From a virus, in IMG/VR virus record IMGVR_UViG_3300033141_006171, positions 1 through 24,773 of that record: a DNA stretch of 24,773 nt; one strand, given 5' to 3'. The notes under the pieces are model-generated. The model was not told the DNA's origin. It worked only from the letters and a program-made list of their open reading frames with translations, and did no database searches. Within the stretch, counting starts at the first letter, position 1. Each line of letters starts with the position of its first letter. Made by a program: the position numbers and the translations under genes. Positions 59 to 22,313 of the stretch are shown in pieces.

Positions 59-292
59 TTAAGACGCCTGCAGGACATTAAGCGCCTTTTCCAGGCGCCC
101 TATAACGTCCAGATATACAGGCGCATCCACGCGCCCGCGCTCTGCTACCTCCTCAGCTACCAGCAGAGCCTTCCCCATTATAACCCGCGCATACATCTCC
201 TCCGCCGCGTACGCGGATATGGAGGAGATAGCAACACGCAAAAGCCGAAGCTCCTGCGCGATATCCGCAAACTTCGACTTGCGCTTCTTCAT
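59..292 (-). CDS. Small helical protein of unknown function (77 aa)
   Basis: I do not recognise the family. The protein opens with a basic stretch (MKKRKSKFAD). The rest is rich in Ala, Leu, Glu and Arg and looks fully alpha-helical, with hydrophobic heptads that could form a short coiled coil. I chose the ATG at 290-292, preceded by GGGGGTG; a GTG directly before it in frame is an alternative. It lies between the stem-loop array on its upstream side and the start of another leftward gene downstream. There are no cysteines, signal peptide or membrane segment. Confidence 0.55.
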   Translation of the reverse strand: MKKRKSKFADIAQELRLLRVAISSISAYAAEEMYARVIMGKALLVAEEVAERGRVDAPVYLDVIGRLEKALNVLQAS

Positions 293-298
293 CACGCA

Positions 299-399
299 CC
301 CCCGGATTTATGCAGGATATAAAACCGCCTCGCGCACGCGCTGGCCGAAATTTGCCCCGGATATACACGGGATATAAACGGCCCGCACGCGCACGCGCC
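299..399. repeat. Two imperfect tandem copies of a 43-45 nt GC-rich unit
   Basis: Two units start with CCCCGGAT (299 and 355), share the word GGATATAAA (315-323 and 370-378) and end in alternating CGCGCACGCGC. They lie directly upstream of the leftward gene starting at 292, so they could carry its control signals. On the minus strand the shared word reads TTTATATCC, which is AT-rich enough to be part of a -10 region. No clear -35 box is seen. Confidence 0.5.
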
Positions 400-436
400 C
401 ACACACCGACGCCTAAGTTAGGCCCACCGCACAATG

Positions 437-453
437 TTAGGAGAGCCTAACTT
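437..453. promoter_or_regulatory. Operator-like site TTAGGAGAGCCTAACTT
   Basis: This 17-nt word matches the site at 20339-20355 (TTAGGTTAGCCTAACTT) at 15 of 17 positions. The other copy lies at the predicted transcription start of the portal promoter. The core TTAGG...CCTAA is a dyad, as expected for a dimeric repressor. The sequence just before it (AAGTTAGGCC at 415-424) can also pair with the right half. Function is inferred from position and repetition only. Confidence 0.4.
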
Positions 454-463
454 TTCCGGCACA

Positions 464-678
464 GAGTTTGCTTCCGACACTAAAGCAAACTCCATACCGG
501 CATGGTTTTTGCTATGCTCAAACGTACGCATATCTATCTGAGCATAGCTACGAAAACGCCTGTAACCAGGCCAAATTTCGCTGTACAGCTACGTTTTCAC
601 ATGTAGACGTGTCTACATGCCTGCACGCGAAAAACGTAGCTTAGAGGCGGAATTTGACGCCTTTACAGGCGTTTTTCG
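464..678. repeat. Array of three consecutive inverted repeats
   Basis: Stem 1 is GAGTTTGCTT (464-473) with AAGCAAACTC (483-492), a perfect 10 bp. Stem 2 is GCTATGCTCA (511-520) with TGAGCATAGC (539-548), also a perfect 10 bp. The third is an imperfect palindrome of about 128 nt (551-678) centred on CATGTAGAC-GT-GTCTACATG (600-619). Its outer arms pair CGAAAACGCCTGTAA with its inverse near 663-678, and its middle arms pair AGCTACGTTTTC with GAAAAACGTAGCT. With the 100 nt around it this stretch has no gene. It could be a structured RNA, an origin or a recombination site. Confidence 0.65.
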
Positions 679-695
679 CATTTCACTGTACATAA

Positions 696-738
696 AAAAA
701 GCCCACGTCCGCGTATCACTTCTAGACGTAGGCTTTTT
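696..738 (-). terminator. Rho-independent terminator of the leftward 772-1906 group
   Basis: AAAAAGCCCACGTC (696-709) pairs with GACGTAGGCTTTTT (725-738), leaving a 15-nt loop. Transcribed leftward, the hairpin is followed by a run of Ts, and its single irregular pair is a G-U. It sits 34 nt past the stop of the 235-aa gene. The A-run on the other side would let it act in both directions. Confidence 0.75.
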
Positions 739-771
739 CAGGGAAAACGCTGAAGAGCTTGGGACAATGGT

Positions 772-1479
772 TTAGTTGTTAGCTTGTTTCTGTTCCTGGA
801 TCGTTTTCAATATCTCCAGGAATTCGGATGCCAACATCTTAAAACGGATGGTGTCGGAAGTTTTGCCCGACTTGCTTTGAGCTCGCTGACCGCTTTTCGA
901 TCGCGGCCCAACCCACCCCAGGAATTTCCTGCCGTTCTTGGTGACGCCTACGATAGCCGTACGGCCGTCAAGAGTGGTTTCGGCATGGGTTTCGGCCGAA
1001 CGAAAGCGTTCAAGTACCCATTTCACTCCCCCGGCGTCAAGCCTAAACAAGACAACTTTAGGCTTGCCGTCAGGGACCTCGATGACTGCAAGCTCATTGC
1101 CCTTGACCTTGATCCTGACAACGCGCTTCGTCTTCAAGACCTTGGTCACATCTATCTCAGGATGAGCAAAGAGCTCATCCTTGCCCTCTTTCGTATCATA
1201 GAGACCCCTTAACAAAACGTTTGCCCTGAGATTTTGCTCGACACCTTCGATCTCGGTTTCGATCTCGTTCAGATCGAGATCGAACAGATCGAACTGCACC
1301 TCAGGAGTCTCTTCAGCCTGCACTTCAGCCTGCACCTCAGGAGTCTCGGTGGTTTCAGCAGTCTGAACCACAGCCTCTTCAGTCTCGGCAGGCATGGTCT
1401 CGTCAGCCTGGGCAACTTCAGCCTGCACATCAGTCTCGACAGGCCTGACCTTTTTGCGATTGCGCTTGGACTTGGACAT
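772..1479 (-). CDS. Unknown protein with acidic low-complexity N-terminus (235 aa)
   Basis: I do not recognise the family. Residues 1-13 are very basic (SKSKRNRKKVR). Residues 14-80 are acidic and repetitive, with recurring TPEVQAEVQAEE and FDLFDLDLNEIETEIE units, and are probably disordered. The remaining 150 residues look folded, with alternating beta strands (RVVRIKVKGNELAVIEV, KVVLFRLDAG) and a basic region near 190-210 rich in Lys, Arg and Ser. The ATG has an AGGGGGAG ribosome site 4 nt upstream. It is the last gene before the terminator at 696-738. A nucleic-acid-binding role is possible from charge alone. Confidence 0.7.
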   Translation of the reverse strand: MSKSKRNRKKVRPVETDVQAEVAQADETMPAETEEAVVQTAETTETPEVQAEVQAEETPEVQFDLFDLDLNEIETEIEGVEQNLRANVLLRGLYDTKEGKDELFAHPEIDVTKVLKTKRVVRIKVKGNELAVIEVPDGKPKVVLFRLDAGGVKWVLERFRSAETHAETTLDGRTAIVGVTKNGRKFLGWVGPRSKSGQRAQSKSGKTSDTIRFKMLASEFLEILKTIQEQKQANN

Positions 1480-1494
1480 GTTCTCCCCCTGTTT

Positions 1495-1710
1495 TTAGTT
1501 ATGGTTGTCTACCAGGGCAACGATCGCCTTTAGATTTGCCCTGGTTAAGGGACGGACAACGTCAAAGCTGGACAGTCCTATGCAGGCATGCGCCTGCTTC
1601 GATGATGTCCACTTGACGTCAACGTTTTCCACTTGCCCTCGCGAAAAGCTTAGCGTAGCGATCACTGCTACGTTTTCAGAGGGCAAGTCAAGGAGAACTC
1701 TCTTAAGCAT
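1495..1710 (-). CDS. Small unknown protein (71 aa)
   Basis: The start is the ATG at 1708-1710, chosen because GGGGGAG lies about 7 nt upstream; the frame stays open a little further. Predicted content is mostly beta strand (LLDLPSENVAVIATLSFS, ENVDVKW) followed by a helix (LTRANLKAIVALVDNHN). No family is recognised. Two perfect 10-bp inverted repeats lie inside the coding region (1511-1545 and 1631-1688), which is unusual and leaves some doubt that coding is the main role of this stretch. It sits between two genes of the same strand, with gaps under 20 nt. Confidence 0.5.
   Translation of the reverse strand: MLKRVLLDLPSENVAVIATLSFSRGQVENVDVKWTSSKQAHACIGLSSFDVVRPLTRANLKAIVALVDNHN
1511..1688. 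repeat. Two perfect 10-bp hairpins inside a small gene
   Basis: ACCAGGGCAA (1511-1520) pairs with TTGCCCTGGT (1536-1545). ACTTGCCCTC (1631-1640) pairs with GAGGGCAAGT (1679-1688). The second encloses a nested CGTAGC/GCTACG stem (1654-1659, 1667-1672) and a GAAAA/TTTTC pair. GCAGGC-ATGC-GCCTGC lies between them near 1579-1594. The word GGGCAA recurs in the hairpin at 2392-2412. Confidence 0.6.
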
Positions 1711-1729
1711 TTCGCGTCTCCCCCCCCCG

Positions 1730-1906
1730 TCAATCGTAATCAAGGTAAATCATTCGCGAGAGCCGATCAAGTAGCTCAGAGAGCAACTTGTGATCCGTTT
1801 GCTCGACATCGAATATCGTGACCCGGATGTCTTTCCCAACCACTCTTATTTCCCATACAGGGAATTCAAGTGATCCTCTCTCTTCCGTTTGTTGAATCCG
1901 CAACAT
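1730..1906 (-). CDS. Small unknown protein (58 aa)
   Basis: The open frame extends to 2020, but the ATG at 1904-1906 has a strong AGGGGGAG site 6 nt upstream, the same arrangement as the two genes that follow, so I start it there. The protein is strand-rich at first (LEFPVWEIRVVGKDIRVTIFD), then a helix (LLSELLDRLSRMI), with an acidic end. No family is recognised. It is the first gene of a three-gene leftward group (1906 to 772). The extension upstream contains an 18-nt perfect palindrome (1970-1987), which also argues against coding there. Confidence 0.5.
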   Translation of the reverse strand: MLRIQQTEERGSLEFPVWEIRVVGKDIRVTIFDVEQTDHKLLSELLDRLSRMIYLDYD

Positions 1907-2450
1907 CGCGCACTCCCCCTGTCCAAGTCCAAGCTCTTCAGCGCTTTCCCTTAGTGGACAGATTTTAGCCATCCCTTGCAAGGGATGAGGCCCCAAGACC
2001 GCGACAAGGTATCTGTCCACCTTGGGGGAAAGCTATGTTAGGGGATTTAACCTCGACAACCTTGCTCATCGTTAGGGAGTCTTACCTTTGCCTTGCACTC
2101 CCGTTGCCCTATGTAACGAAGCATGGACAGTGCTTCGCATTTTCGGTGTGTGGGATGCTGCCGGTCATAGCACTGAACAGTGCTATGACGTGTATCTTTA
2201 CATCTATCTGTTTCAGCTCAGCTCATAGCTGAACAGCTTTCATCCACAGACAGACGCCTATGAACAGCCTGGAAAACAGGCGCTATTCATAGGTACCAAT
2301 CCCACAGTGACCCATAGGTCACGCTGAGCAGGCAACCACAGACTAGAACGCCTGAAAGTTGCCATGCGGTTGTCTGTTTGTCATAGAACGTGGGCAAGTG
2401 GACAGCTTGCCCTGTCTGAACCTATGTTGACGGTGCTAAAGATATGAAAA
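1907..2450. repeat. Non-coding hairpin cluster with TGGACAG/TGAACAG loops
   Basis: No convincing gene is present. Hairpins include CGAAGCA-TGGACAG-TGCTTCG (2117-2137), CATAGCAC-TGAACA-GTGCTATG (2166-2187), CCTATGAACAGCCTG with its imperfect inverse (2257-2293), GTGACC-CATA-GGTCAC (2307-2322) and GGGCAAG-TGGACAG-CTTGCCC (2392-2412). An 18-nt palindrome CATCCCTTGCAAGGGATG lies at 1970-1987. The first and last of these hairpins have the same 7-bp stem, 7-nt loop design with the same loop. The region lies upstream of the leftward 1906 gene, so it may be its leader or control region. Confidence 0.65.
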
Positions 2451-3029
2451 AACATCCACAAAATCAATTTTGCCCTCATCGTAACTTCAGCAAAAACAGC
2501 TACTTAGGTGTGGGAATTTTCGTGAATTTGTCAAGCTCCTAATTTTCGCTTGCAAGTAGTTGATTTTTCGAAAGTTACGTTGTCAAGAATTTGCTTCTGA
2601 AAAGGTGAAAAAAATGAAGTTTTTTTAGGCTTGCAACTATGTGTTTTTGCTTATCTTAGCCTTATCCTTAGTGAAAACACCCGCTTACAGGCGTTGCGTA
2701 AGTGTAGCAAAAACACATATTTAGGTTATTTGTCTAAGAAAAAATGTTTTTGTTCCATAGGCAAGCGGAATTTTACTCATATCGGGATTTTTGGGTAATC
2801 GTTGTCGAAAAGTTGCATCAGACGTCAAGACAACGATCAACTTTTGGATCAACTTTGGCTTGGGTGTGGCTTGGGTATGGGTTGGGTGTAGGTTTAGGCA
2901 TAGCTTAGGTATGGACTATGTGTAGACCAGGCATGGACAGATAGACACCTATGCCTATTTTTTGGCATGGAAATTGCTGGGTGAACCGAACCGGTGTGAT
3001 ATTCCGGCTATTTTTCCTCGTTTTCACTC
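2451..3029. other. AT-rich and G-rich non-coding stretch
   Basis: No gene is seen. A perfect 14-bp inverted repeat (TATGTGTTTTTGCT at 2638-2651 and its inverse at 2706-2719) spans an inner CTTAC/GTAAG stem. A G-rich run of repeated GGCTTGGGTGT-like words follows (2856-2930), with four GGG tracts at 2862-2886. AGGCAT/ATGCCT (2929-2956) followed by ATTTTTT resembles a weak rightward terminator. Nothing identifies a promoter with confidence. Confidence 0.5.
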
Positions 3030-3560
3030 TAACATATTACTGCTATATAGCATACTTCATATTACTGCTAGATAGCATGCTCCGCTGTCTATCGTAGCGT
3101 GCTGTCTACAGTGTGTATCTTCGTGTATCCTCTCTGTGGCAGTGCGTATCTTTGTGTGTCGTTTCTATAGCGTAGCGTGCTCTATGCAGGTAGGATAGTG
3201 GTGGTAGGCTGTCTAGCGTAGTGTGCTGCCTGGCGTAGCATGCTATCTAGCACGCTTTACTATATAGCAAAGCGTGCTGTCTATAGTATGTATCCTCTCT
3301 GGGGGGGGTAGAGCGGACTTCGGCTACCGTGAAGTTACGGTAGCTCTACGGTAGCTCTAGTGTATGTCTTCGTGTGTCTGCTCTGTGTGGATAGAATAGC
3401 TGTAGCGTGCCGTCTAGTGTAGTGCGCTGTCTATCGTCTCTGTGTAGGTAGGACGGTAGCTTTATGGTAGCTCTCTAGCACGTAGTGCAGTGTGCTGTAT
3501 GCTATTGTGCCATCCGTGCTGGTGCGTAGTAGCGTGCTATCCGCGGTAGCTCTACGGTGC
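3030..3560. repeat. Degenerate repeat array of GTAGCGTGCT/GGTAGCTCTA words
   Basis: The array opens with two tandem 25-nt units (3033-3057 and 3058-3082, starting CATATTACTGCTA). It then continues as a decayed series of words such as GTAGCGTGCT, CTGTCTA and GTATCCTCTCT. From 3324 the word GGTAGCTCTA is repeated, including a GCTACCGT/ACGGTAGC hairpin (3324-3345). CGATAGCTCTA recurs past the tRNA at 3664-3690. No gene lies in this stretch. It is downstream of the leftward accessory block and could mark a replication or recombination region. Confidence 0.6.
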
Positions 3561-3566
3561 TGGTAG

Positions 3567-3638
3567 TGCCCCCAGGAGGAGTCGAACCTCCGCTCTAGGA
3601 TCGAAAATCCTAGGTCCTAACCACTAGACGATGGGGGC
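3567..3638 (-). tRNA. tRNA-Glu (anticodon UUC)
   Basis: The 72-nt cloverleaf folds cleanly on the minus strand: acceptor GCCCCCA/TGGGGGC with discriminator A, a 3-bp D stem around TAGTGGTTAG, anticodon stem TAGGA/TCCTA with loop TTTTCGA, and T arm GGAGG-TTCGACT-CCTCC. Loop positions 34-36 read TTC, giving Glu. Position 37 is G, where A is usual. The 3' CCA is not encoded. The gene lies at the 3' end of the leftward accessory block, and its 5' end is 2 nt from the palindrome at 3641-3660. Confidence 0.92.
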
Positions 3639-3640
3639 AT

Positions 3641-3660
3641 TTTTTGCAGACCTGCAAAAA
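3641..3660. repeat. Dispersed palindrome TTTTTGCAG-AC-CTGCAAAAA, copy 1
   Basis: A perfect 9-bp palindrome with a 2-nt centre, 2 nt upstream of the tRNA-Glu gene. The same design recurs at 5978-5999, 14141-14164 and 22613-22630 with different central bases, so the arms are conserved and the centre is not. It could be an operator or a small hairpin terminator. Confidence 0.7.
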
Positions 3661-3692
3661 TACACGATAGCTCTACGATAGCTCTACGGTAT

Positions 3693-4445
3693 CTAGGCTC
3701 CGTCTAGATCTAACTTTAGCTGAGCGGCCTCAGCGCTGATTCTCCTTTTAGCAATCTCGCAATACTCCTCCGATATTTCTATACCGATCCACCGGCGGCC
3801 TAATTGCTCACAGGCTACGGCAGTGGTTCCAGAACCTATAAACGGATCTAAAACTATATCACCGGTAGCAGTGTTATTCTCTATAAGCCACCTCAATAGA
3901 TAAACAGGCTTTTCAGTAGGATGATACAGCCGGCCAGGAGGCACTCGGCGGCAGTCTATTACATCCGGTAAACGCTGCCGAAAGGCATGCTCCTCTAAAG
4001 GATAAAACAATATACCTTCCCACATCCTGCCGTACTCATGCGCCAGATCACCAGCAGTCCAACTATTTTTTACCCACACAATGAAAGACTTCGGCCTATC
4101 CTCGCAACCTAGTCCGCCTACTTCAGCTCCTACTTCAGCTCCCACTCTAGCTCCTAAATCTATAAGGTTCTCCCACCTGCAAAAAACGAATACGGCCTTC
4201 CTAGCCAGCCTTTTTAAAAGCGCTATAATTTCACTAGGAAACCGCTCATCATTAGCTATAAATCCAAACGGATTCTCCTCTTTATAGCGGTTGCTGCGAT
4301 AACGCATACCATACGGAGGATCAGTAACTACTAAATCTACACTCTTAGGCTCCAGCCGCGGCAGTACCTCCAAACAATCTCCGCAATACAATACCCCTAA
4401 ATCCGTGCGGAAATATTCACGCGCCGGGATGTCCACCGACTTCAC
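3693..4445 (-). CDS. DNA methyltransferase, DPPY type (likely N6-adenine)
   Basis: This 250-aa protein transfers a methyl group from S-adenosylmethionine to a DNA base. Catalytic motif IV is TDPPYGMRY near residues 40-50, and the cofactor motif I is VLDPFIGSGTTAVACEQLGR near 205-225. Motif IV before motif I is the beta-class order. DPPY favours N6-adenine as the target. A GTG start (4443-4445) follows TAGGAG. It resembles the second methyltransferase at 13086-13850, nearly identical over motif I. No partner restriction enzyme is seen, so it is probably an orphan enzyme that protects or marks phage DNA. The TnpB element lies just upstream. Confidence 0.9.
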   Translation of the reverse strand: MKSVDIPAREYFRTDLGVLYCGDCLEVLPRLEPKSVDLVVTDPPYGMRYRSNRYKEENPFGFIANDERFPSEIIALLKRLARKAVFVFCRWENLIDLGARVGAEVGAEVGGLGCEDRPKSFIVWVKNSWTAGDLAHEYGRMWEGILFYPLEEHAFRQRLPDVIDCRRVPPGRLYHPTEKPVYLLRWLIENNTATGDIVLDPFIGSGTTAVACEQLGRRWIGIEISEEYCEIAKRRISAEAAQLKLDLDGA

Positions 4446-4495
4446 GCTCTCCTACCCCCACGTTTCGTAAATCCAAAAAGCACTACCTCCGACCT

Positions 4496-4640
4496 TTGGC
4501 ACTCCGCACGGCTAAGGCCATGGGATTCTTGGGTGGCTCCAGGCGATCCATTTCTGTCCGCCCTTCATCGCCCCCAAGTTCGGGGCTGTGCCATCAGCCC
4601 ATCCTGAGCCAGGTCGTATAGACGCTCAGGCAACCATCCT
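4496..4640 (-). ncRNA. Probable omega RNA (TnpB guide RNA scaffold)
   Basis: TnpB proteins use an RNA made from the 3' end of tnpB and the right end of the element, with the guide taken from flanking DNA. Here 130 nt with several stems lie between the tnpB stop and the conserved end motif at 4496-4515, including GAGC/GCTC pairing near 4600-4630 and GCCCCGAACTTGGGGGC near 4570-4590. If the model holds, the guide starts near 4495 and reads leftward into the methyltransferase leader. Exact ends are inferred. Confidence 0.5.
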
Positions 4641-5693
4641 GTTACCAGATGGTTCAGGTGCTCTCAAGATGTTCAAGATGTTGAGTGCACCCACCCGATC
4701 CCGGTGGGATCGGAATCCACACCTGCAGACGTACATTCGGTCTCTGGCCTTATTGCGTACTCCACATACAGGACAGGCTTGGGAAGTATAGGCAGGGTCT
4801 ACATATTCTACGCCAATACCCACAAGCTTGGCCTTATATTCGATGAACGAGGCCAGGCGATAGAACGACCATGAGTGCAACGAACGGTTGTTTTTACGAC
4901 TTTTTCGTGTCGCCGACCGGATATTAGCAAGCTTCTCCAGACGGATAACAGAGACGCCCTCTTGGAGGGCAAAGTTGACAATAGCACGAGACAGCTTATG
5001 ATCCTGATCCCGCATCCAACGCTGTTCCTTGTTCTTTGACTTCTTGATAGCGTTCAGTTTCTTGGCCTTGCCCAGCTTCCTGCGGCGGGCAAAATGACGG
5101 CGCCGGACGTATTTCCGCTGACGTCCATTTCCAAAAAAGCGGGTCTTGCCTGTAGAGGTGACGGCTACAGCGGGAACCTTGATCCCAAGGTCTATACCCA
5201 TTACTTCACCTCCGGGCTTCGGACGCGCTTCTTCGACCTCCACAGGTATCTGAGCAAACCACTTGCCCGACTTCTGGACGATCCGCAGGGTTCCCAAATG
5301 GCCCCGAAGCTTCTCCCGGTGGTGAGCCTGGATCGAGGCTCTGACACGAATTCGGGTGGACTTGCCCTCAATCCACAAGGGAAAAGAAATGGTGTCTTCG
5401 CCTACCCGGTAGTTTTGATTGTTCCAAAAACACACCGGCTTTTTCAGGATGGGCACTCTACCTAGCTTCTTAGACTTACGGAAGACACTATAGGCATCTC
5501 GAACAGCCTGCGACTTAACCGCAGACGGGAGCGGCGCTTGGACTGTCCGGCTGGTAGGCCGATGCCATTCTCCAAGTTCTACAGCCTGTGCCACAATCCG
5601 GTTGACCGTCTGGATGTAGGCCTGGGTTGCATGCCGCAACCAAGCTCCTTGCTCAAAAGTCGGACAAAGCTTGATGTTAAGAGTGAGATTCAT
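4626..5693 (-). CDS. tnpB: TnpB RNA-guided endonuclease (IS605 OrfB family)
   Basis: A full-length 355-aa protein. The split RuvC active site is complete: D168 in GIDLGIKVPAVAV, E253 in IRLEKLANIR and D332 in HRDRVGALNI. A zinc ribbon starts with CPVCG (C307, C310), but the second pair is C323-R-C325, one residue shorter than the usual CxxC. TnpB enzymes cut DNA matched by an omega RNA guide and help the element persist. The family also includes the ancestors of Cas12. The ATG at 5691-5693 lacks a strong ribosome site. It is flanked by phage genes on the same strand and probably read through by the accessory operon. Confidence 0.92.
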   Translation of the reverse strand: MNLTLNIKLCPTFEQGAWLRHATQAYIQTVNRIVAQAVELGEWHRPTSRTVQAPLPSAVKSQAVRDAYSVFRKSKKLGRVPILKKPVCFWNNQNYRVGEDTISFPLWIEGKSTRIRVRASIQAHHREKLRGHLGTLRIVQKSGKWFAQIPVEVEEARPKPGGEVMGIDLGIKVPAVAVTSTGKTRFFGNGRQRKYVRRRHFARRRKLGKAKKLNAIKKSKNKEQRWMRDQDHKLSRAIVNFALQEGVSVIRLEKLANIRSATRKSRKNNRSLHSWSFYRLASFIEYKAKLVGIGVEYVDPAYTSQACPVCGVRNKARDRMYVCRCGFRSHRDRVGALNILNILRAPEPSGNRMVA

Positions 5694-6339: not shown

Positions 6340-7011
6340 CTAAAAGTCCCTAGTTTTTAATTTCGTGATGATACGACTGCCGTTTCTAGCAAATAAATCC
6401 ACTTTTGGCCTCAAAACCAAACCTTCAGCCAGAAAAACGTTGTCCGCGGTTGACCATCTCGAAGTAAAACCTGCTTTTACCATATCTACAGCATCAGATA
6501 AAGTGCCTTCACCTACTATAGTCACTGCTCCTATATCTAAAGAATCGGCAATCTCTTCCACGTCTTCGCGCTTTAGCCACCATCTGCCTATACGCACGTC
6601 GAAAAGCACGAAATCCACGCCGCCAGGTATATAATTTTTGCCAGCGGCCTGAATTCGGTTGCCGTAACCTTCGCCGTATAAGCATACCCACTCGGCGTTT
6701 TCGTCTTTTCCTACAGACGGAAAGACCTCCTTAAGCTTTTCCGCAGAAAATAGCTCTCGTAGCCTATCGTAAAGGAAAGTAGGCAACTGAGCTCTATCAG
6801 TCCGGCCGCGGAAATAAACGTCTTTACCATCGTAAATACACCGCACATTCGTGCCGTCAACCTTCTCGGTGAAAACCCACACATTATCCTTTAAATACTC
6901 GAACTCCGGCAAGCTGTAATCACCGAGGATGAATTTGTGGGTCTTTTCGTCGCGCTTAAAAATAGACTGAATCTTAGGATACTCAGGTACTTTAAGCTCC
7001 ATACCGCTCAT
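6340..7011 (-). CDS. RNA ligase, nucleotidyltransferase fold (223 aa)
   Basis: This enzyme joins RNA ends through a lysyl-AMP intermediate. Motif I is EKVDGTN, with K50 the expected nucleophile. Motif III is near VLFDVRIG, motif IV is EGLVLRP and motif V is ITKLKTRDF at the very end. Its length fits a core adenylyltransferase domain without the extra C-terminal domain of T4 Rnl2. The ATG at 7009-7011 is chosen for its AGGAGGT site 7 nt upstream, over an earlier in-frame start. The RlaP-type gene at 15206-15883 belongs to a family reported to associate with RNA ligases, so the two may act together in RNA repair. A copy of the IS right-end motif lies 14 nt upstream of the start. Confidence 0.88.
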   Translation of the reverse strand: MSGMELKVPEYPKIQSIFKRDEKTHKFILGDYSLPEFEYLKDNVWVFTEKVDGTNVRCIYDGKDVYFRGRTDRAQLPTFLYDRLRELFSAEKLKEVFPSVGKDENAEWVCLYGEGYGNRIQAAGKNYIPGGVDFVLFDVRIGRWWLKREDVEEIADSLDIGAVTIVGEGTLSDAVDMVKAGFTSRWSTADNVFLAEGLVLRPKVDLFARNGSRIITKLKTRDF

Positions 7012-7025
7012 ATAACCACCTCCTA

Positions 7026-7045
7026 TTGGCACTCCGCACAGCTAA
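7026..7045 (-). repeat. Stray copy of the IS605-like right-end motif
   Basis: This 20-nt stretch differs at one base from the right-end sequence at 4496-4515 (minus strand TTAGC-C/T-GTGCGGAGTGCCAA). There is no TnpB gene or matching 5' hairpin arm here. It ends next to the ribosome site of the RNA ligase gene. It may be a relic of a lost element. Confidence 0.6.
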
Positions 7046-13085: not shown

Positions 13086-13850
13086 CTAAAACAGCGACAG
13101 CTGATCAGCCACCGCTCGAATCCTATCACGAGATAATGCACAGTATTTCTCAGATATTTCTATGCCTATCCACCTCCGACCTAGTTGCTCACACGCCACG
13201 GCAGTGGTTCCAGAGCCTATAAACGGGTCTAAAACCACCTCACCAGGAAACGCATAAAGCTTAACCACCCGTTTAGCGAGCCTTACGGGAAAAGGAGCCG
13301 GATGCTTACGCACGCTTTCCGGCGAGACGCGCCATATAGAACGCGTAAATTCTACAAATTCATCACGGCTTATATCAGGCTCACCTTCGCGGCTACCGTC
13401 TTTTCTAAACACCAGGAGGTACTCATGCTGATCTCTAAGGCTAGGGGCATTTTGGCTTCTCCAACTACCCCACGCGGTACGGTAGGTAATGTTTTGCTTA
13501 TCCCATATAATCTCTCCTTTCATGGTTATTTTCTTGCACAGCATAGTGCTTATATAGTCGGAAAGAGGCGTATAAGGCTGGCGACTCGTATTAGCCACAT
13601 TTATCACTATATGACCACCAGGCACTAGTAAATCTATACACCTGGTAAAGACATTATCAATAAAGCGAAGATATTCATCAAGCGGTAGATCATCGCTTAC
13701 GGTATCGTAAGCTACGCCTACATTGTACGGCGGCGACGTAAACACTAGGCCTACACTCTCGGCCTCTATAAGAGGCAGGATAGCGCAGGCATCACCGCAA
13801 TACAACCTACCTTTCTCTGTTTCGTAGAAAAGATAATCGTTTATTTCCAC
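13086..13850 (-). CDS. DNA methyltransferase, TSPPY type
   Basis: This 254-aa S-adenosylmethionine-dependent enzyme has catalytic motif IV as FTSPPYNVGVAYD near residue 38 and cofactor motif I as VLDPFIGSGTTAVACEQLGR near 217, the beta-class order. SPPY is frequent in N4-cytosine enzymes but also occurs in N6-adenine ones, so the target base is open. A GTG start at 13848-13850 follows GAAGGG at 9 nt. It is the first gene after the two tandem leftward promoters. Its C-terminus closely matches the 3693-4445 enzyme, even at DNA level, indicating duplication or recombination. No restriction partner is seen. Confidence 0.9.
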   Translation of the reverse strand: MEINDYLFYETEKGRLYCGDACAILPLIEAESVGLVFTSPPYNVGVAYDTVSDDLPLDEYLRFIDNVFTRCIDLLVPGGHIVINVANTSRQPYTPLSDYISTMLCKKITMKGEIIWDKQNITYRTAWGSWRSQNAPSLRDQHEYLLVFRKDGSREGEPDISRDEFVEFTRSIWRVSPESVRKHPAPFPVRLAKRVVKLYAFPGEVVLDPFIGSGTTAVACEQLGRRWIGIEISEKYCALSRDRIRAVADQLSLF

Positions 13851-15205: not shown

Positions 15206-15883
15206 ATGAGGGATGGGAAGCATGTTATCTTAAAGGTTTTGGTAGGCAGTCGTGCGCACCGTTTGCACGACGAAGATTCTGACTACGACTACAGATCGGT
15301 TTACGTAATTCCGACCGAGGATATTCTTAGCCTTGGATTTAGGTATAAAGGAACGTCTTGGATAGAAGGCAACGAGGATGATACTGCCTATGAAGTAGGT
15401 CATTTCCTTTCCTTAGCAACTAAGTGCAATCCGACGATATTAGAGGTGTTTCTTGCGCCTATAGTGGAAATAACCCCGTTAGGTGCGGAGCTTAGAGATC
15501 TTTTTCCTAAAGTGTGGAATACCAACGATGCCTTTAACGCTTTCGTTGGATATGGCCTGAACCAGCGCAAGAAATTTTTGGACAGGAAGGATAACCGAGA
15601 GATTAAGTACGCCGTGGCTTACATAAGAGTGCTCTATAACTTGACAGAGCTTCTTGAAAGTGGTACTTTTACAATAGCCGTAGGAGACACTCCTATAGGC
15701 GAGAAGCTTCGTCGTTATAAGAAAGGTTATTTCACGACCGGTGAGGTCATAGACGAAGCTGAAAAGCTCATTGCTAGAGCTTCCTATCTGAAGGAAGCTA
15801 TGCCGGAGCATGAGGCTGATTTAGAAGCGGTAAACCGCTATCTCTTGAAGGTGCGCCGCAAATTTTTCAGCGAGGAGAAGTAA
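15206..15883 (+). CDS. RlaP-type nucleotidyltransferase (225 aa)
   Basis: The polymerase-beta-like active site is plain: VGSRAHRLHDEDSDYDYRSV, with G14-S15 and the metal-binding D26 and D28. The rest is helical and includes EVGHFLSLATKCNPTILEVF, typical of the RlaP/YcgL-like family (PF10127), described as RNA-ligase-associated polymerases in RNA repair. The likely job is adding nucleotides to damaged RNA ends before ligation. An RNA ligase gene lies in the opposite operon at 6340-7011. The ATG has AGGAG 7 nt upstream. The gene is packed 10 nt after its neighbour. Confidence 0.85.
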   Translation: MRDGKHVILKVLVGSRAHRLHDEDSDYDYRSVYVIPTEDILSLGFRYKGTSWIEGNEDDTAYEVGHFLSLATKCNPTILEVFLAPIVEITPLGAELRDLFPKVWNTNDAFNAFVGYGLNQRKKFLDRKDNREIKYAVAYIRVLYNLTELLESGTFTIAVGDTPIGEKLRRYKKGYFTTGEVIDEAEKLIARASYLKEAMPEHEADLEAVNRYLLKVRRKFFSEEK

Positions 15884-15885
15884 CT

Positions 15886-16620
15886 ATGCCGCAGATAGAC
15901 AGAGTAAGCGAGGATGAGGTTTATCTGGTGGACGATAAAGGCCGCCGCGTGAAGAGGATCTGTGGTTACCGTCTGCCCGCTGGCGGTGTGTGCCGCCGCA
16001 CTGCAGGTTTCGGCACTATCCACTTAGGCGTAGGTTTATGCAAAGAGCACGAGGCGGCGGCTAAGCAGTTTCCTTCTGTTAGAGACAGAAACTTTTGGCT
16101 AGACAGGTTATCTCTTAGCAATAAAGAGTCGGAGATAGTTGAAGCGCTGACTATAGCTTCTGATATAGACGAGGAGTCTCTCCGTGATATAGATAAGGTG
16201 CTTCGCTTTTACCATGGTCTGCTTCGCCAAATGCTTATTAAGCACCACGAGGAGTGGTCTCCGTCTCACACCGAGCTTGCTTTGAAGATTTTAAAGCAGT
16301 TAGTCGGCGCGGTTGAGACCCGCCACCGCATAGAAAATGTTTACCGCTTCACGGCTGAGGACATTCGTAACTTCATTGATACGGTTATGCGTGTCGTGGC
16401 TATGACCGTAGGTAAGGATATGATCCCTATAGTCGCAGAGCGCCTCTATAAGGAGGTTACACTGCCCGTCCAAGGCAGAGATGAGCGGGTAACCCTGGGG
16501 CGGGTTATGGAAGTACCGGCAGAGGCTGAGTTCGAGGCTGTTGAGGGGAACGGTGAGGCCACGGAAGAAAGCGGTGAAGCCGCAGAGGGGAGTGAAAGTG
16601 AGCGAGAAAAACCAGCCTAA
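15886..16620 (+). CDS. Putative terminase small subunit with N-terminal zinc finger (244 aa)
   Basis: Residues 26-55 hold CGYRLPAGGVCRRTAGFGTI and a CKEH end, a finger seen at the start of many phage packaging proteins. Helices follow, including ELALKILKQLVGAVETRHRI, compatible with DNA binding and oligomerisation. The last 40 residues are Glu-rich and disordered (EATEESGEAAEGSE). It directly precedes and overlaps the large terminase by 23 nt, the usual place for the small subunit, which recognises phage DNA and starts packaging. The call rests mostly on position and the finger. Confidence 0.68.
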   Translation: MPQIDRVSEDEVYLVDDKGRRVKRICGYRLPAGGVCRRTAGFGTIHLGVGLCKEHEAAAKQFPSVRDRNFWLDRLSLSNKESEIVEALTIASDIDEESLRDIDKVLRFYHGLLRQMLIKHHEEWSPSHTELALKILKQLVGAVETRHRIENVYRFTAEDIRNFIDTVMRVVAMTVGKDMIPIVAERLYKEVTLPVQGRDERVTLGRVMEVPAEAEFEAVEGNGEATEESGEAAEGSESEREKPA

Positions 16621-19252
16621 CGGCTTTAATCCGCTGATCGATAGCCTGGTAGAGTGGGCAGATAAAGTCCGCAAAGATGAGACGGTGCCTATACTGGCGC
16701 GGTACCCTTGGTCTAAGGAGAAAGAAGAGGAGTTCTCCAAAGTGCCGGTGCAGGAGCTTATAGAAAACGACTATTTTCTAGGCCTTAAAAACCAGGTGTT
16801 TCCGGCGGTGATGGACGATATAATCAGCTTATTTGAGGAGCGTGAAAAAAGAAGAATAGAAGTTGCCATCTTCGAGGAGGCCTGGGGTAGCGGGAAGTGC
16901 GTTACCGGAGACACCTTGGTGTTTACGGAAGATGGTGTGCTGTATATGGAGGAGTTAGCTAGGAGGCTACGGTGTGAGGATGGGTGGGCTACCTATACCG
17001 CGAAGGTGGCTACGGTTGATGGCTATAAAGGCGCAGGTGGGTTTTATGCTAATGGCAGGACACCGACTGTAAGGATAAAACTTAGGTTAGGTTTTGAGAT
17101 AGAAGGTACCGTGGATCATCCGGTTTTAACATTGAATGATGACGGATGTATGGTATATAAGCCTCTGCTTGGGGTGCGAGAGGGAGATTATGTAGCCGTA
17201 AAAGTAGGTAGCAACTTATGGGGCAGGAAAACCGATTTGAAGTGGGTATGGCCTGGCTCGGTTGAGAATGGCGTTTATTCTAAGAGGATTAAATATCCAG
17301 AAAAGCTTACGGTGGATTTGGCATACCTTTTAGGTCTGCTGGTTGGTGATGGCGGATTAACCGGGCGATACAGCATTACGTTTACTAGTGCCGATGAGGG
17401 TTTATTAGAGTGGGTTACCAAGACGATGTGGAGTGTTTTTGGCGTGAAGGCGACAATCGTTAGGTCGCCTGGTAAATGCCCGTGTGTTTCGGCTAGTGGT
17501 GTGCGGTTGGTAGATTTCTTTGATAGACTGGGGATGTGTAAGCTGTCTTATGATAAAGAAGTGCCGAAAGTTATTCGCGAAGCGCCGAGAGAGTATGTTA
17601 TTGCTTTCTTGCAGGGTTTGTTTGATACCGACGGTTGGGTAGAAAGAGGTGCGGTAGGATTAGCCTCAGCTAGTGAACGTCTGATCAGGCAGGTTCAACT
17701 CATACTTCTGAATTTAGGTATAGTTGCCTCTATTTGGCCCAAACACCGGAAAGGTTACTCAAGGACGTGCTGGACGTTAGAGATAACCGGATCGGGGTTA
17801 AGGCAGTTTAAGCGGATAGTAGGCTTTAGGTTGAAACGAAAGAGCGATGACTTAAAAGGGTTCGGTGATGGTGTTGGGAGCCGGAGCCTTTCCCCGGTGC
17901 TTCCACCTATTAAGTGGGCGATGGGAAGGTGGCTAGAGGGCTTGTGCCGTTTAGGGGATATGGTGTGGTTACCTGTGGTAGGTGTAGCTGATGGCGAGGC
18001 GGAGACTTACGACCTGGAAGTGCCAATGGGCCATAATTTTGTAGCGAATGGCATTGTATCTCATAACACCACCAAATCCGCCATTATCACTTGGATTCTG
18101 TGGTATAGGCATTTAGGCACGGTGCACCGGCCTCAGCGCAGGTACGGACTTGCTGACAACTCACACATCGCCATTATGACTTTCTCCCGCAGTGCTAAGC
18201 AGTCTGCCAAAGTTACCTACGACCGCATTAGGCCATTCTTCTATTGTCCGTTTAACCGCGATTACTTCCCGCCAGATCCTACCAGGATTGCCGAGGTTCG
18301 TATCCCTGACAACAAAACCGTTATCTTTCCTGGCACTTCTACAGCACTGTCCGCGCTGGGATACGATCTGTTTGGTTGCGTGGATGAAAGCACGGTGATT
18401 GCTACGCCGAGAGGCGATGTAAAGATTGCGGAGTTGGAGGGGAAAAGTGATTTATATGTTACGTCCTACGACGTAGTGCGCCGGTGTCCAGTAGTGGCTA
18501 CTGCTGAGGCTGTAGTGTGTAAAGGCGTTAAGGATGTGTGGGAGATAGAAATGGGAAGCGGTTATATATTGAGGGCCACAGAGGATCATAAAGTTTTGGT
18601 AAAGACCAGCGGTGGTATACTTGTTTATAAGACAGTTGCGCAGATTGGCGAAGGCGACGATGTAGTGGTGCGGAGCGGCACAACAGAAGTAACCTCAAAG
18701 CGTTATGTGGGGCACCATAAGGTGTATGATGTCGTAGGCGTTGAGCCGCATCAGAACTTTATTGCAAATGGTGTGGTTGTGCATAACTGCGTGATCGATG
18801 AAGCTAATTTCTTCCAGGTAACGGAAGGCTCTAAAAGACAGAGTGCGGTAGGCGCAGATGGTATGCACGATGCGGCAGAGGAGATGTTTAATACGGTTTA
18901 TGCTCGTATGTTTTCGCGGTTTGGCAAAGATAGCCCGTGCCTTATAGTGCTGATTTCCAGCAAAAACTATGCCGGAGACTTCCTTGAGAGGAAGGTTGCT
19001 GAGTATGCTCGCATAGGCTTTGAGAACGCTCACGTTTTTTATCGTAGCCGCCCTCACTGGGAGGCGAAGCCGTGGGAGTATTCTGGCGAGAAGGTGCTGT
19101 TTGACTTAGATAGGATGGAGGTTGTGGATAAGGAGTATCTGAAGCGGCGGCGGATGGAGAAAATAGAAGCTATCGCCGCTGAGTTAGGTATAGAAGACGT
19201 AGGCCACTTGGTGGTGCCGGGGGGCGAGGTAGATGGAGATACTAGAGCTTAA
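16598..19252 (+). CDS. terL: Terminase large subunit, ATPase part, with two inteins
   Basis: This 884-aa precursor drives DNA into the head by ATP hydrolysis. The GTG at 16598 follows AGGGGAG, and residues upstream in frame lack a site. Removing intein 1 (residues 101-490) joins EEAWGSGK to TTKSAIITW, making the Walker A loop. Removing intein 2 (594-730) joins GYDLFG to CVIDEANFF, the Walker B motif. The coupling motif is near LIVLISSKN. The spliced product is about 357 aa and lacks the nuclease domain, which is in another frame at 19303-20283. The frame ends early at TAA 19250, soon after GHLVVPGGEVDGD. Confidence 0.9.
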   Translation: MSEKNQPNGFNPLIDSLVEWADKVRKDETVPILARYPWSKEKEEEFSKVPVQELIENDYFLGLKNQVFPAVMDDIISLFEEREKRRIEVAIFEEAWGSGKCVTGDTLVFTEDGVLYMEELARRLRCEDGWATYTAKVATVDGYKGAGGFYANGRTPTVRIKLRLGFEIEGTVDHPVLTLNDDGCMVYKPLLGVREGDYVAVKVGSNLWGRKTDLKWVWPGSVENGVYSKRIKYPEKLTVDLAYLLGLLVGDGGLTGRYSITFTSADEGLLEWVTKTMWSVFGVKATIVRSPGKCPCVSASGVRLVDFFDRLGMCKLSYDKEVPKVIREAPREYVIAFLQGLFDTDGWVERGAVGLASASERLIRQVQLILLNLGIVASIWPKHRKGYSRTCWTLEITGSGLRQFKRIVGFRLKRKSDDLKGFGDGVGSRSLSPVLPPIKWAMGRWLEGLCRLGDMVWLPVVGVADGEAETYDLEVPMGHNFVANGIVSHNTTKSAIITWILWYRHLGTVHRPQRRYGLADNSHIAIMTFSRSAKQSAKVTYDRIRPFFYCPFNRDYFPPDPTRIAEVRIPDNKTVIFPGTSTALSALGYDLFGCVDESTVIATPRGDVKIAELEGKSDLYVTSYDVVRRCPVVATAEAVVCKGVKDVWEIEMGSGYILRATEDHKVLVKTSGGILVYKTVAQIGEGDDVVVRSGTTEVTSKRYVGHHKVYDVVGVEPHQNFIANGVVVHNCVIDEANFFQVTEGSKRQSAVGADGMHDAAEEMFNTVYARMFSRFGKDSPCLIVLISSKNYAGDFLERKVAEYARIGFENAHVFYRSRPHWEAKPWEYSGEKVLFDLDRMEVVDKEYLKRRRMEKIEAIAAELGIEDVGHLVVPGGEVDGDTRA
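16898..18067 (+). other. Intein 1 with LAGLIDADG homing endonuclease, in Walker A
   Basis: The 390-aa intein starts CVTGDTLVFTEDG (block A) and ends with VANGIVSHN. Block B is GTVDHPVL. The endonuclease motifs are LLGLLVGDGGL and FLQGLFDTDGWV, each with its acidic residue, so it may be active. The terminal Asn is present and the +1 extein residue is Thr, giving a standard splice. Insertion falls between GSGK and TTKS of the P-loop, so unspliced protein cannot bind ATP. Confidence 0.93.
18377..18787 (+). other. Intein 2, mini-intein without endonuclease, before Walker B
   Basis: The 137-aa intein starts CVDESTVIATPRG, has block B as ATEDHKVLV, and ends VEPHQNFIANGVVVHN with Cys as the +1 residue. 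Its length is that of a splicing domain alone, with no LAGLIDADG motif. It sits directly before CVIDEA, the Walker B strand. It is clearly a different intein from intein 1, not a copy. Confidence 0.92.
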
Positions 19253-19286
19253 CGTAGGCGGCGAGAGGCATCGCTTTATAGATTAA
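19233..19286 (+). pseudogene. Orphan terminase fragment in a third frame
   Basis: Seventeen codons (MEILELNVGGERHRFID) lie in a frame different from both the ATPase frame and the nuclease frame, and bridge the gap between them. The VGGERHRFI segment resembles the linker of related terminases before their NPE-AL-DF segment. No homologue can be checked here, so this is inference. Confidence 0.45.
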
Positions 19287-19302
19287 CCCTGAAAGGGCCT
19301 TA

Positions 19303-20283
19303 ATGGACTTTGCCTGCATATCGGCGGAGAGCGGCACGCCGTATTTCCGCCGTAAGGATGCTATTAGGGCGGCCTTTAAGGATAATCGTCCTAATCCGTT
19401 TGATGAGGATAGGTGGGCATTTGCCGATGATTTTATGTGTAAGGACAGCTATCGTCGGTTTATCCACGTAGACCTTGCTAAAAATCGAGATGCTGCTGGT
19501 ATAGCGATGTGCCACGCACCGAAGTTTGTGGATGTAGAAAGAGTGAATTTGCAGAGTATGGAAAGAACCACGGAGCGTGCCCCGCACATAGTGGTTGATT
19601 TTATGGGGCGGTTAAAGGCCCCTGCCGGTGGAGAGATCATATTCTCTGATGTTCGTCAGCTTATATACGAGCTTGTGGAAAAGAGAGGCTTCCGCATTGC
19701 GCTGGTTACCTTTGACCGGTGGCAGAGCGTGGACATTATCCAGCAGCTCCAGGCCTACGGCCTAAACGTAGGTCTGCTTTCTGTGGATAGGACGGCCACC
19801 TATCCTGTGCTGGATTATTCTAAGGATGGTAATATCCGCAAGGAGAGCTCGTCTGGCAGGTACACTATATGCTATGAGACGCTGAAGGAGGCTTTATATG
19901 ATGGCCGCGTGTCTGTTCCGGTGCATCCTTACTGGGAGAAAGAGCTATCCACAGCGCAGAGAGTTATATCGCTGGGAACGCGTGGTGTAGAGCGCGTTGA
20001 AAAGCCCCGCGGTGGTAGCGATGACCTTTTGCAAGCGGTGGCTGGATGTGTATTTATGCTGACGGTAAACGAGAAGGAGTATGTAGAAATAGAGCCGTCT
20101 AAAGAGGAGAAGGCTGCGATGGTTAAGGAGAAAGAGATATATGATACGCTTGGATACAGCGAGATAGGTAATGATGGTAAAGGCGTTGAGGATTGGGAGA
20201 TCGATGCTTTAGATAATCCCGATTTAGCGGCTATCGATGATGAGCTGGATGATCGGCCATCATCTATTCACGATGTGTGGTAA
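19303..20283 (+). CDS. terL: Terminase large subunit, nuclease part
   Basis: This 326-aa frame contains the RNase H-like headful nuclease: FIHVDLAKNRDAAGIAM (first Asp), IALVTFDRWQSVDIIQQL (second Asp) and GGSDDLLQAVAG (third Asp). It cuts the concatemer before and after packaging. The ATG at 19303 has GAAAGGG 5 nt upstream, so separate translation is possible. However, terminase-like sequence reaches upstream of it in frame (INPERALMDFAC) as far as a TAG at 19279, showing that an ancestral longer gene was broken. It may work as a separate chain with the ATPase, or be a damaged gene. Confidence 0.85.
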   Translation: MDFACISAESGTPYFRRKDAIRAAFKDNRPNPFDEDRWAFADDFMCKDSYRRFIHVDLAKNRDAAGIAMCHAPKFVDVERVNLQSMERTTERAPHIVVDFMGRLKAPAGGEIIFSDVRQLIYELVEKRGFRIALVTFDRWQSVDIIQQLQAYGLNVGLLSVDRTATYPVLDYSKDGNIRKESSSGRYTICYETLKEALYDGRVSVPVHPYWEKELSTAQRVISLGTRGVERVEKPRGGSDDLLQAVAGCVFMLTVNEKEYVEIEPSKEEKAAMVKEKEIYDTLGYSEIGNDGKGVEDWEIDALDNPDLAAIDDELDDRPSSIHDVW

Positions 20284-20355: not shown

Positions 20356-20399
20356 GTGTTCGAGTAACCTTACTGCTTTCGTTGCTAAGGAGGGCTGGT

Positions 20400-22313
20400 G
20401 TGTCAGTGAAATTCCCGCTGGTAAAGCGGTCAACTTTTGAGAGTCTGCGCAAGGAGTATGCTGAGCTTAGGGAGGATTTAGCGAAGCTTCAGAGTGCCGT
20501 TGACGGCATAAAGAGCTCCTATGAAGAGCAGAAGAAGGTATATGAAAAGCAGGTTGAGGAGCTAAAAGCGCAGGTCGAGCGTGAGCGAACCGAGCGAGTG
20601 AGCATAGAGGAGGAGTTTATAGAGAGGGAAATCAGGCACCGTATGGATGATGGCCGCTACCGCGGGATGGTTGACGAGGAATTTCTGTATAACTTATCCG
20701 AGGATATAGGCGTACCGGTAGAGAGGGTTAAGGAGGTTGCGGAGGCCAGGTATTTTATACAATCCATAGGTTATGTAACTGCTATTCGTAATCTTTCGCG
20801 CAGTGAGTTGGCTCTGTGGCAAAATGCGGCGTTCGGAAGGGTATGGAAAGACCCCCACGCTATGAATATAGCCAACCAAATACAGTGGTGGACTCTTGGC
20901 AGAGGCATCAGGTTCCACTGCGATGTGCCTGAAGTCCAGGACATCCTGGAGAAGTTTTGGCGTTTGAATGATATGGAGATCCGCCATAAGAAAATGGTCT
21001 GGTCGACATTTGTAGAAGGTGAGGATTTTAGGTTGTTCCACATCAATAAAGCCACAGGCAGAATTAGGCTCCGCAAGCTTATGCCTATAGAGATTAGAGA
21101 TATAGAGGTGCATCCTGCCGACAATAGCATCCGACTAGCCTATCACTACGTGAGAGATGATGATCCAGATGAAGGTCGGTGGTATGCCGATGCGGATTAC
21201 TTTGAACAGCTTGAAGATGATCTAGATGGACAAAGGAGTGCTCACCACGACGAGCTTGCGGCTGATAGGCTGGTGCAGATGATTAAGTATGGCTGTGAAG
21301 AGGAGGTAAGCGGCAGAACACCTTTCCAGCCTATACTGCGTTTTCTTAAGTACTATGAGATATTCGTTACAGACCGTATGCGGCTTAATCATGAGCGGTC
21401 TAAGGTGTTGTGGATTCAAACTATCACTGGTGGCAGGCCAGAAACCACAGAGCGTGATAGGCGTGCTCCTGCTGGTGGTGTGATGCTCACGGAGACCGAG
21501 CATAAGAAATACCGCACCGAGAGTGCTAAGATAGAGGCGCCCAGTGCCCAGCCGGACGGCAGAATGGTGCTTTACTGCATAGGTAGCGGCGTATCTATGC
21601 CACTGCACGTTCTCGACCAGAATCCTGAGCAGGAGCCTTATGCGGCTATTCGTAAGGCTGACTCGCCGTTTTCGGCTATGATTCAGGATAACCAGGACTT
21701 CTGGCATTTTAACTTTGATAAAATGTTTCGTGTCGTTATTAGGGAGAATGTTAAAGCCGGCCTTCTGCCGGAAAGGGTAACGGTTAAGCGGTTCACCTAT
21801 AAAGCTACACAAGAGGCTTTAGATATTATTAAAGCTGGTGCGGAGGCGCTGGAGAAAGGTGATGCGGATGAGGTGATTAAGTGTATGAAGTATTTAGCTG
21901 AGGCTACCGAGGACTATGCTACTGAGGATATAGAGATTGATACAGTGGATGTGCCGATTCAGATAGTCTTCCCTGCAGTGGTAGTGGAAGATCCGTTTAG
22001 GAAAGCACAAGAGCTCCAGATCTACGATATGATGGGGCTTGCTGATAAATCTACGCTTGCTGGTATGGCGGGCTTTAACTGGCCGGAAGAGGAATACAAA
22101 ATGAGAATGAGGGGTAGGCAAGTTACCCGCACTAAGCCTGACCTAAAGCCGGGCGCATCTCCTCCGAAAGGTGGTAAGGAGCCTGCTGAGCCGCAAGCGG
22201 AGCAAGTAGCCGCGCGGCAACTTGCTGTGGCCGCAGAGAACCTGCGGCAAATAGTGGCATCTGCCAGCGAGATGCTGGACAGGATGGAGCGAGCATCAAA
22301 GACGGGGCAGTAG
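20400..22313 (+). CDS. Putative portal protein (637 aa)
   Basis: The portal is the dodecameric ring at the head vertex through which DNA passes. The GTG at 20400 has AAGGAGGG 6 nt upstream; an in-frame TTG at 20382 would place the ribosome site inside the gene. Residues 10-75 form a coiled coil (RKEYAELREDLAKLQSAVDG). The core begins near AFGRVWKDPHAMNIANQIQW, and contains RLNHERSKVLWIQTITGG and DQNPEQEPYAAIRKADSPFS. The C-terminus is Pro-rich, then helical. Position after terminase, length and following protease-scaffold support the call. Residue-level family motifs are weak to my eye. Confidence 0.8.
   Translation: MSVKFPLVKRSTFESLRKEYAELREDLAKLQSAVDGIKSSYEEQKKVYEKQVEELKAQVERERTERVSIEEEFIEREIRHRMDDGRYRGMVDEEFLYNLSEDIGVPVERVKEVAEARYFIQSIGYVTAIRNLSRSELALWQNAAFGRVWKDPHAMNIANQIQWWTLGRGIRFHCDVPEVQDILEKFWRLNDMEIRHKKMVWSTFVEGEDFRLFHINKATGRIRLRKLMPIEIRDIEVHPADNSIRLAYHYVRDDDPDEGRWYADADYFEQLEDDLDGQRSAHHDELAADRLVQMIKYGCEEEVSGRTPFQPILRFLKYYEIFVTDRMRLNHERSKVLWIQTITGGRPETTERDRRAPAGGVMLTETEHKKYRTESAKIEAPSAQPDGRMVLYCIGSGVSMPLHVLDQNPEQEPYAAIRKADSPFSAMIQDNQDFWHFNFDKMFRVVIRENVKAGLLPERVTVKRFTYKATQEALDIIKAGAEALEKGDADEVIKCMKYLAEATEDYATEDIEIDTVDVPIQIVFPAVVVEDPFRKAQELQIYDMMGLADKSTLAGMAGFNWPEEEYKMRMRGRQVTRTKPDLKPGASPPKGGKEPAEPQAEQVAARQLAVAAENLRQIVASASEMLDRMERASKTGQ

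Follow-up and report, generated by a model that had tools for sequence, protein, structure and literature searches.

The window, the whole 24,773-base IMG/VR record IMGVR_UViG_3300033141_006171, very probably carries the ATPase gene of a two-gene large terminase (TerL) that has been invaded twice by different inteins, the terminase being made of a spliced motor and a separate nuclease subunit. The two-gene TerL is a less expected feature here than the intein pair, and having the ATPase and the nuclease on separate genes is also of greater consequence. Model terminases have the motor and the nuclease fused, and there is debate over how the nuclease is kept silent during translocation and brought into action for headful cutting. 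The features of the terminase region are collected in Table 1.

Table 1. Features of the terminase region of the window (^ marks an intein insertion site)
Feature	Positions	Strand	Basis
Possible small terminase	15886–16620	+	Position only; no family match in profile search
TerL ATPase precursor gene	16598–19252	+	GTG start, translation, alignment with seven phage TerLs, tblastn against 179 phage records
Extein 1, terminating in Walker A ...EEAWGSGK	16598–16897	+	Translation and TerL alignment
Intein 1, 390 aa, class 1, LAGLIDADG endonuclease, site GSGK^TTKS	16898–18067	+	Residues, Pfam, tblastn
Extein 2, TTKSAII...LGYDLFG	18068–18376	+	Translation and TerL alignment
Intein 2, 137-aa class 1 mini-intein, site LFG^CVIDEA (Walker B)	18377–18787	+	Residues, Pfam, family alignment
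Extein 3, Walker B CVIDEANFF, C-motif region, end of ATPase gene	18788–19252	+	Translation and TerL alignment
Probable true nuclease start, ATG 19233 (MEILELNVGGERHRFID), TAA 19284–19286	19233–19286	+	Position and sequence match relatives' starts MSIIKVPMELKENFLRDPENFIRDIA and MEIIKQPKKFRRIFLLNPGRF
Frame break GATTAAC; a +1 step continues ...FID-NPERALMDFACI	19281–19287	+	Homologous continuation in the +1 frame
TerL nuclease subunit, 326 aa from ATG 19303	19303–20283	+	Open frame, PHROG, blast, AlphaFold
Portal protein	20382–22313	+	PHROG portal families, E about 5e-6

The likely GTG start of the ATPase open reading frame (ORF) has GAGGGGAG upstream, and the ORF ends with TAA at 19252. Removal of both inteins in silico leaves a product of 357 aa, the length that the sequence-only reading had predicted. 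The joined exteins read ...EEAWGSGKTTKS...LGYDLFGCVIDEANFF... and align along the full ATPase domain with TerLs that lack inteins, from Vibrio, Gordonia, Maribacter and Streptomyces phages. Specifically, joining restores the motifs of a packaging ATPase, with Walker A GSGKTTK, Walker B CVIDE and C-motif LISSK. The AlphaFold model of an ATPase subunit is poor (mean pLDDT 36), and the assignment therefore rests on sequence. The 357 aa match TerL ATPases, and the name "terminase" given earlier to this gene holds for the ATPase half only, the nuclease being the next ORF.

The product of this next ORF matches the PHROG terminase large subunit and is 32–33% identical to actinophage terminases in their C-terminal halves. 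Its AlphaFold model (mean pLDDT 78) finds its best PDB matches in the TerL nucleases of the thermophilic phages G20c and P74-26, and the sequence has conserved acidic residues in HVDLA, TFDRWQS and SDDLLQA, as in an RNase H-fold nuclease. The G20c and P74-26 nucleases share this fold but are C-terminal domains of fused TerLs, and the cultured relatives also carry both TerL domains on one ORF. In contrast, the window and seven other lineages encode on separate ORFs the ATPase and nuclease that make up one polypeptide in a TerL.

These lineages were found by searching IMG/VR with ATPase and nuclease alignments and sorting the loci by whether the profile matches share an ORF. Both domains lie on one ORF in 143 loci of the family and on separate ORFs in 15, and these 15 loci represent eight lineages (the window, L136, L137, L216, L217, L218, L221 and L223). 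The eight come out as monophyletic in the ATPase tree, with a support of 1.0, and are nested in a family of otherwise fused TerLs. In the nuclease tree the two-gene clade has a support of 0.96 and includes L228 and L238, in which the nuclease gene stands alone and the ATPase lies off the fragment retrieved. All split loci are metagenomic contigs.

The ATPase stop and the nuclease start overlap in L218 (TTTTAATG), and in the window the overlap is 20 nt, counted from ATG 19233. The other clade members have about 0.4–1.2 kb between the ATPase and the nuclease, usually with other genes, and the intervening ORFs include exonuclease-like and co-chaperonin-like ones by our own reading of the sequences. 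The nuclease genes start at the hinge joining the two TerL domains (e.g. MSIIKVPMELKENFLRDPENFIRDIA...); the gene is therefore cut at a natural domain border. The separate nuclease gene of L238 (1329–3335) is also intein-bearing, within TFDGFQ^S of the nuclease active-site region.

Some annotators name a terminase "ATPase domain" and "nuclease domain" separately, and two-gene TerLs may thus be informally known. No description of a split or two-gene TerL was found in the open-access papers searched, and a review of jumbo phages describes the C-terminal nuclease associated with TerL as universal in Caudovirales. Profiles of the split clade matched no sequence in the PDB, and the split ATPase profile matched none of the bacterial genome contigs searched.

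The sequence-only reading had placed two different inteins in the Walker A and Walker B motifs, and its limits hold to the base, intein 1 opening at 16898 and intein 2 closing at 18787. The ORF scores far beyond chance for Pfam Intein_splicing (3e-26) and LAGLIDADG_3 (3.5e-25). Intein 1 has the residues of a class 1 intein, with Cys1 (CVTGDT), block B TVDH and SHN^T with a +1 Thr, is 390 aa long as stated earlier, and carries the two LAGLIDADG motifs (LLVGDGG and LFDTDGW) of a homing endonuclease. Its tblastn matches are phage inteins, including that of the Psychrobacillus phage Perkons terminase, and over its full length it is 23–31% identical to other P-loop and Walker-B inteins. Intein 2 likewise has class 1 residues, with Cys1 (CVDEST), TEDH and VHN^C with a +1 Cys, and its translated sequence is free of an endonuclease, as expected of an element proposed to be 137 aa long and to do splicing only. 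It belongs with the TerL Walker-B inteins of L218, Bacillus phage SP-15 and Listeria phage LIS04 (31–40% identical in the family alignment), its site lying one residue downstream of theirs. From these conserved residues we infer that both inteins splice. The anatomy also bears out the proposal that the ATP-site motifs are unusable before splicing, as an active motor would almost certainly need both inteins excised.

Inteins in terminases were already known, as had been said, from literature and database precedents including mycobacteriophage TerL. The further suggestion that double placement at both catalytic motifs is unusual gained no support from comparison. An intein in or touching each Walker motif of TerL is present in the window and also in L302 and L089, and nearly so in SP-15. 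Specifically, the L302 TerL is interrupted by one intein within Walker A (G^SIGCGKS) and by another at Walker B; both motifs are affected as in the window, but the Walker-A site is G^S and the Walker-B intein is split. The L089 TerL (240–5408, minus strand) also has both motifs affected, but by three inteins, located in the P-loop, before SKIRGQR and, as the last, just after Walker B (SDEFA^S). In the SP-15 TerL (KT624200) a split intein occupies Walker B, and another intein precedes Walker A by three residues. The Walker-B inteins of SP-15 and LIS04 belong to the family of intein 2 (39–40% identity); unlike intein 2, they are split over two ORFs and inserted one residue upstream, and the part after Walker B is fused with the nuclease domain.

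Published cases resemble the window to differing degrees. Mycobacteriophage inteins TerL1-a, at P-loop Lys^Thr, and TerL1-e, at Walker B, occupy sites like those of the window, but are described as separate insertion sites in a fused TerL (PMC5050341). The TerL of Microcystis phage Mic1 also contains two different inteins, one with an endonuclease, with +1 Thr and +1 Cys, but one is in the ATPase domain and the other in the nuclease domain of a fused TerL (PMC7156551). Two inteins are also reported for a crAss-like TerL (PMC7886860). Outside terminases, a single haloarchaeal MCM protein can hold up to four inteins; one site directly follows the Walker A lysine and another lies four residues past Walker B (PMC3972481). 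Inteins A and C affect both Walker motifs as in the window, but in an archaeal replicative helicase. Furthermore, the helicase of Vibrio phage 13VV501A has inteins at both Walker motifs. Judged by its sequence, the intein pair of the window is a further case of known double TerL insertions. Our survey patterns detect only inteins that start with Cys, or common junction motifs, and the true number is therefore probably higher.

Several other intein arrangements came to light in the survey. Naturally split TerL Walker-B inteins, encoded by two ORFs, occur in L298 (SP-15; 2222–4963), L013 (LIS04; 3000–4851), L302 and L304, and in SP-15 a 232-aa ORF sits between the N- and C-intein halves. L099 (945–2555) has two inteins at the TerL P-loop, apparently only six extein residues apart (HN^SIGFGK^C), and an apparent portal-type gene in L078 (7123–10929) contains two inteins and adjoins an intein-bearing TerL.

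The distribution of inteins among the closest relatives bears on why both motifs are interrupted. Within the split clade, inteins at Walker A occupy GSGK^T in the window, GSGK^S in L137 and GIG^SGKT in L217 and L221, and the L137 intein is different from that of the window, begins with Ala and looks class 3. Walker-B inteins are found in the window and L218, while the ATPase genes of L136, L216 and L223 are free of inteins. Differing inteins, differing codons and erratic presence among close relatives are what homing into conserved sites predicts; a conserved switch, by contrast, would be expected to be retained. Recurrent homing into such sites accounts for the double placement. The idea of a timing or condition-dependent switch, advanced in the sequence-only reading, is thus unsupported. 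Such a switch would keep the inteins because their splicing depends on heat, redox state, zinc or the stage of infection, packaging waiting for both excisions. The interruption of both catalytic motifs would suit it, and sensor roles for TerL inteins have been proposed in PMC5050341 and in the study of Mic1 (PMC7156551). However, the closest relatives have other inteins at other positions or none, intein 1 retains its homing endonuclease and the sequence shows no sign of a sensor, which makes a switch improbable.

The junction between the two genes likewise admits several readings. The break at 19284, in the frame opened by ATG 19233, is most likely a base error or a real mutation; it was sought in the relatives and is absent from all, and a check for near-identical contigs found none among the loci retrieved. 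With this frame broken, the window copy may not yield an intact nuclease from ATG 19233. A start at the internal ATG 19303, with the 17-codon upstream frame not translated as part of the nuclease, would agree with GAAAGG a few bases upstream and with a well-predicted part of the AlphaFold model that begins after residue 8, but it would forgo the hinge segment kept by relatives, which the upstream frame encodes, and we regard it as rather unlikely. The nuclease could in principle be expressed by a programmed +1 frameshift like that of prfB, taking place at GAT UAA C, since the shift point is a stop codon followed by C with coding sequence flanking both sides. Yet the arrangement occurs in no relative and is without prfB-like Shine-Dalgarno spacing, and a search near the break for notable RNA structure, which could be stimulatory, found none (fold z = 0.56), so that we think such a frameshift very unlikely. 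It is also highly improbable that the separation of the two genes in the window is a local artefact, in which a fused TerL acquired one-base insertions at TTAAC 19249–19253 and 19283–19287. The two breaks are alike (GCT T AAC and GAT T AAC), and two +1 steps would give one continuous frame; however, the genes are separate in seven related lineages, most with other sequence in between, and the frame from ATG 19233 matches the nuclease starts of relatives. A broader scheme, in which a tailed-phage clade has a natural two-polypeptide TerL and two splicings plus one +1 frameshift would here set subunit ratio and timing, is as a whole very unlikely.

A further account of the gap between the ATPase and the nuclease, as a small intron or bypass element, was rejected: the gap has no Rfam match, inverted repeat or stable fold, and its only repeat is a direct one of 8 nt. 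The explanation by two frameshifts in a fused gene was dropped once relatives with separate genes turned up.

Under the preferred reading, a two-gene terminase invaded by two inteins, the 390-aa intein would have homed into the P-loop codons by means of its LAGLIDADG endonuclease, and the 137-aa mini-intein, a member of the TerL Walker-B family, would have lost its endonuclease or never had one. After translation, each intein would be excised by the class 1 route, with a Cys1 acyl shift, transfer to the +1 Thr or Cys and Asn cyclisation, and excision of both would give the 357-aa motor ATPase. The separately translated nuclease subunit, of RNase H fold, would then assemble with the ATPase and replace the usual fused TerL. 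The inteins probably persist as selfish elements rather than as a regulatory switch. A natural two-subunit terminase would allow the motor and the nuclease to be purified, mixed and titrated independently. The intein pair, one more instance of a TerL struck at both ATP-site motifs, is useful for the study of intein site choice.

Elsewhere in the window, a tRNA-Glu (TTC) lies at 3566–3638 (minus strand), and an IS605 OrfB/TnpB-like protein (OrfB_IS605, Cas12f1-like_TNB) is encoded at 4626–5693 (minus strand). An RNA ligase (6340–7032, minus strand) and a RlaP-type nucleotidyltransferase (15206–15883, plus strand) are possibly an RNA repair pair. Two N6/N4 DNA methyltransferases (3693–4445 and 13086–13850, minus strand) share a near-identical C-terminal segment, VLDPFIGSGTTAVACEQLGRRWIGIEISE.
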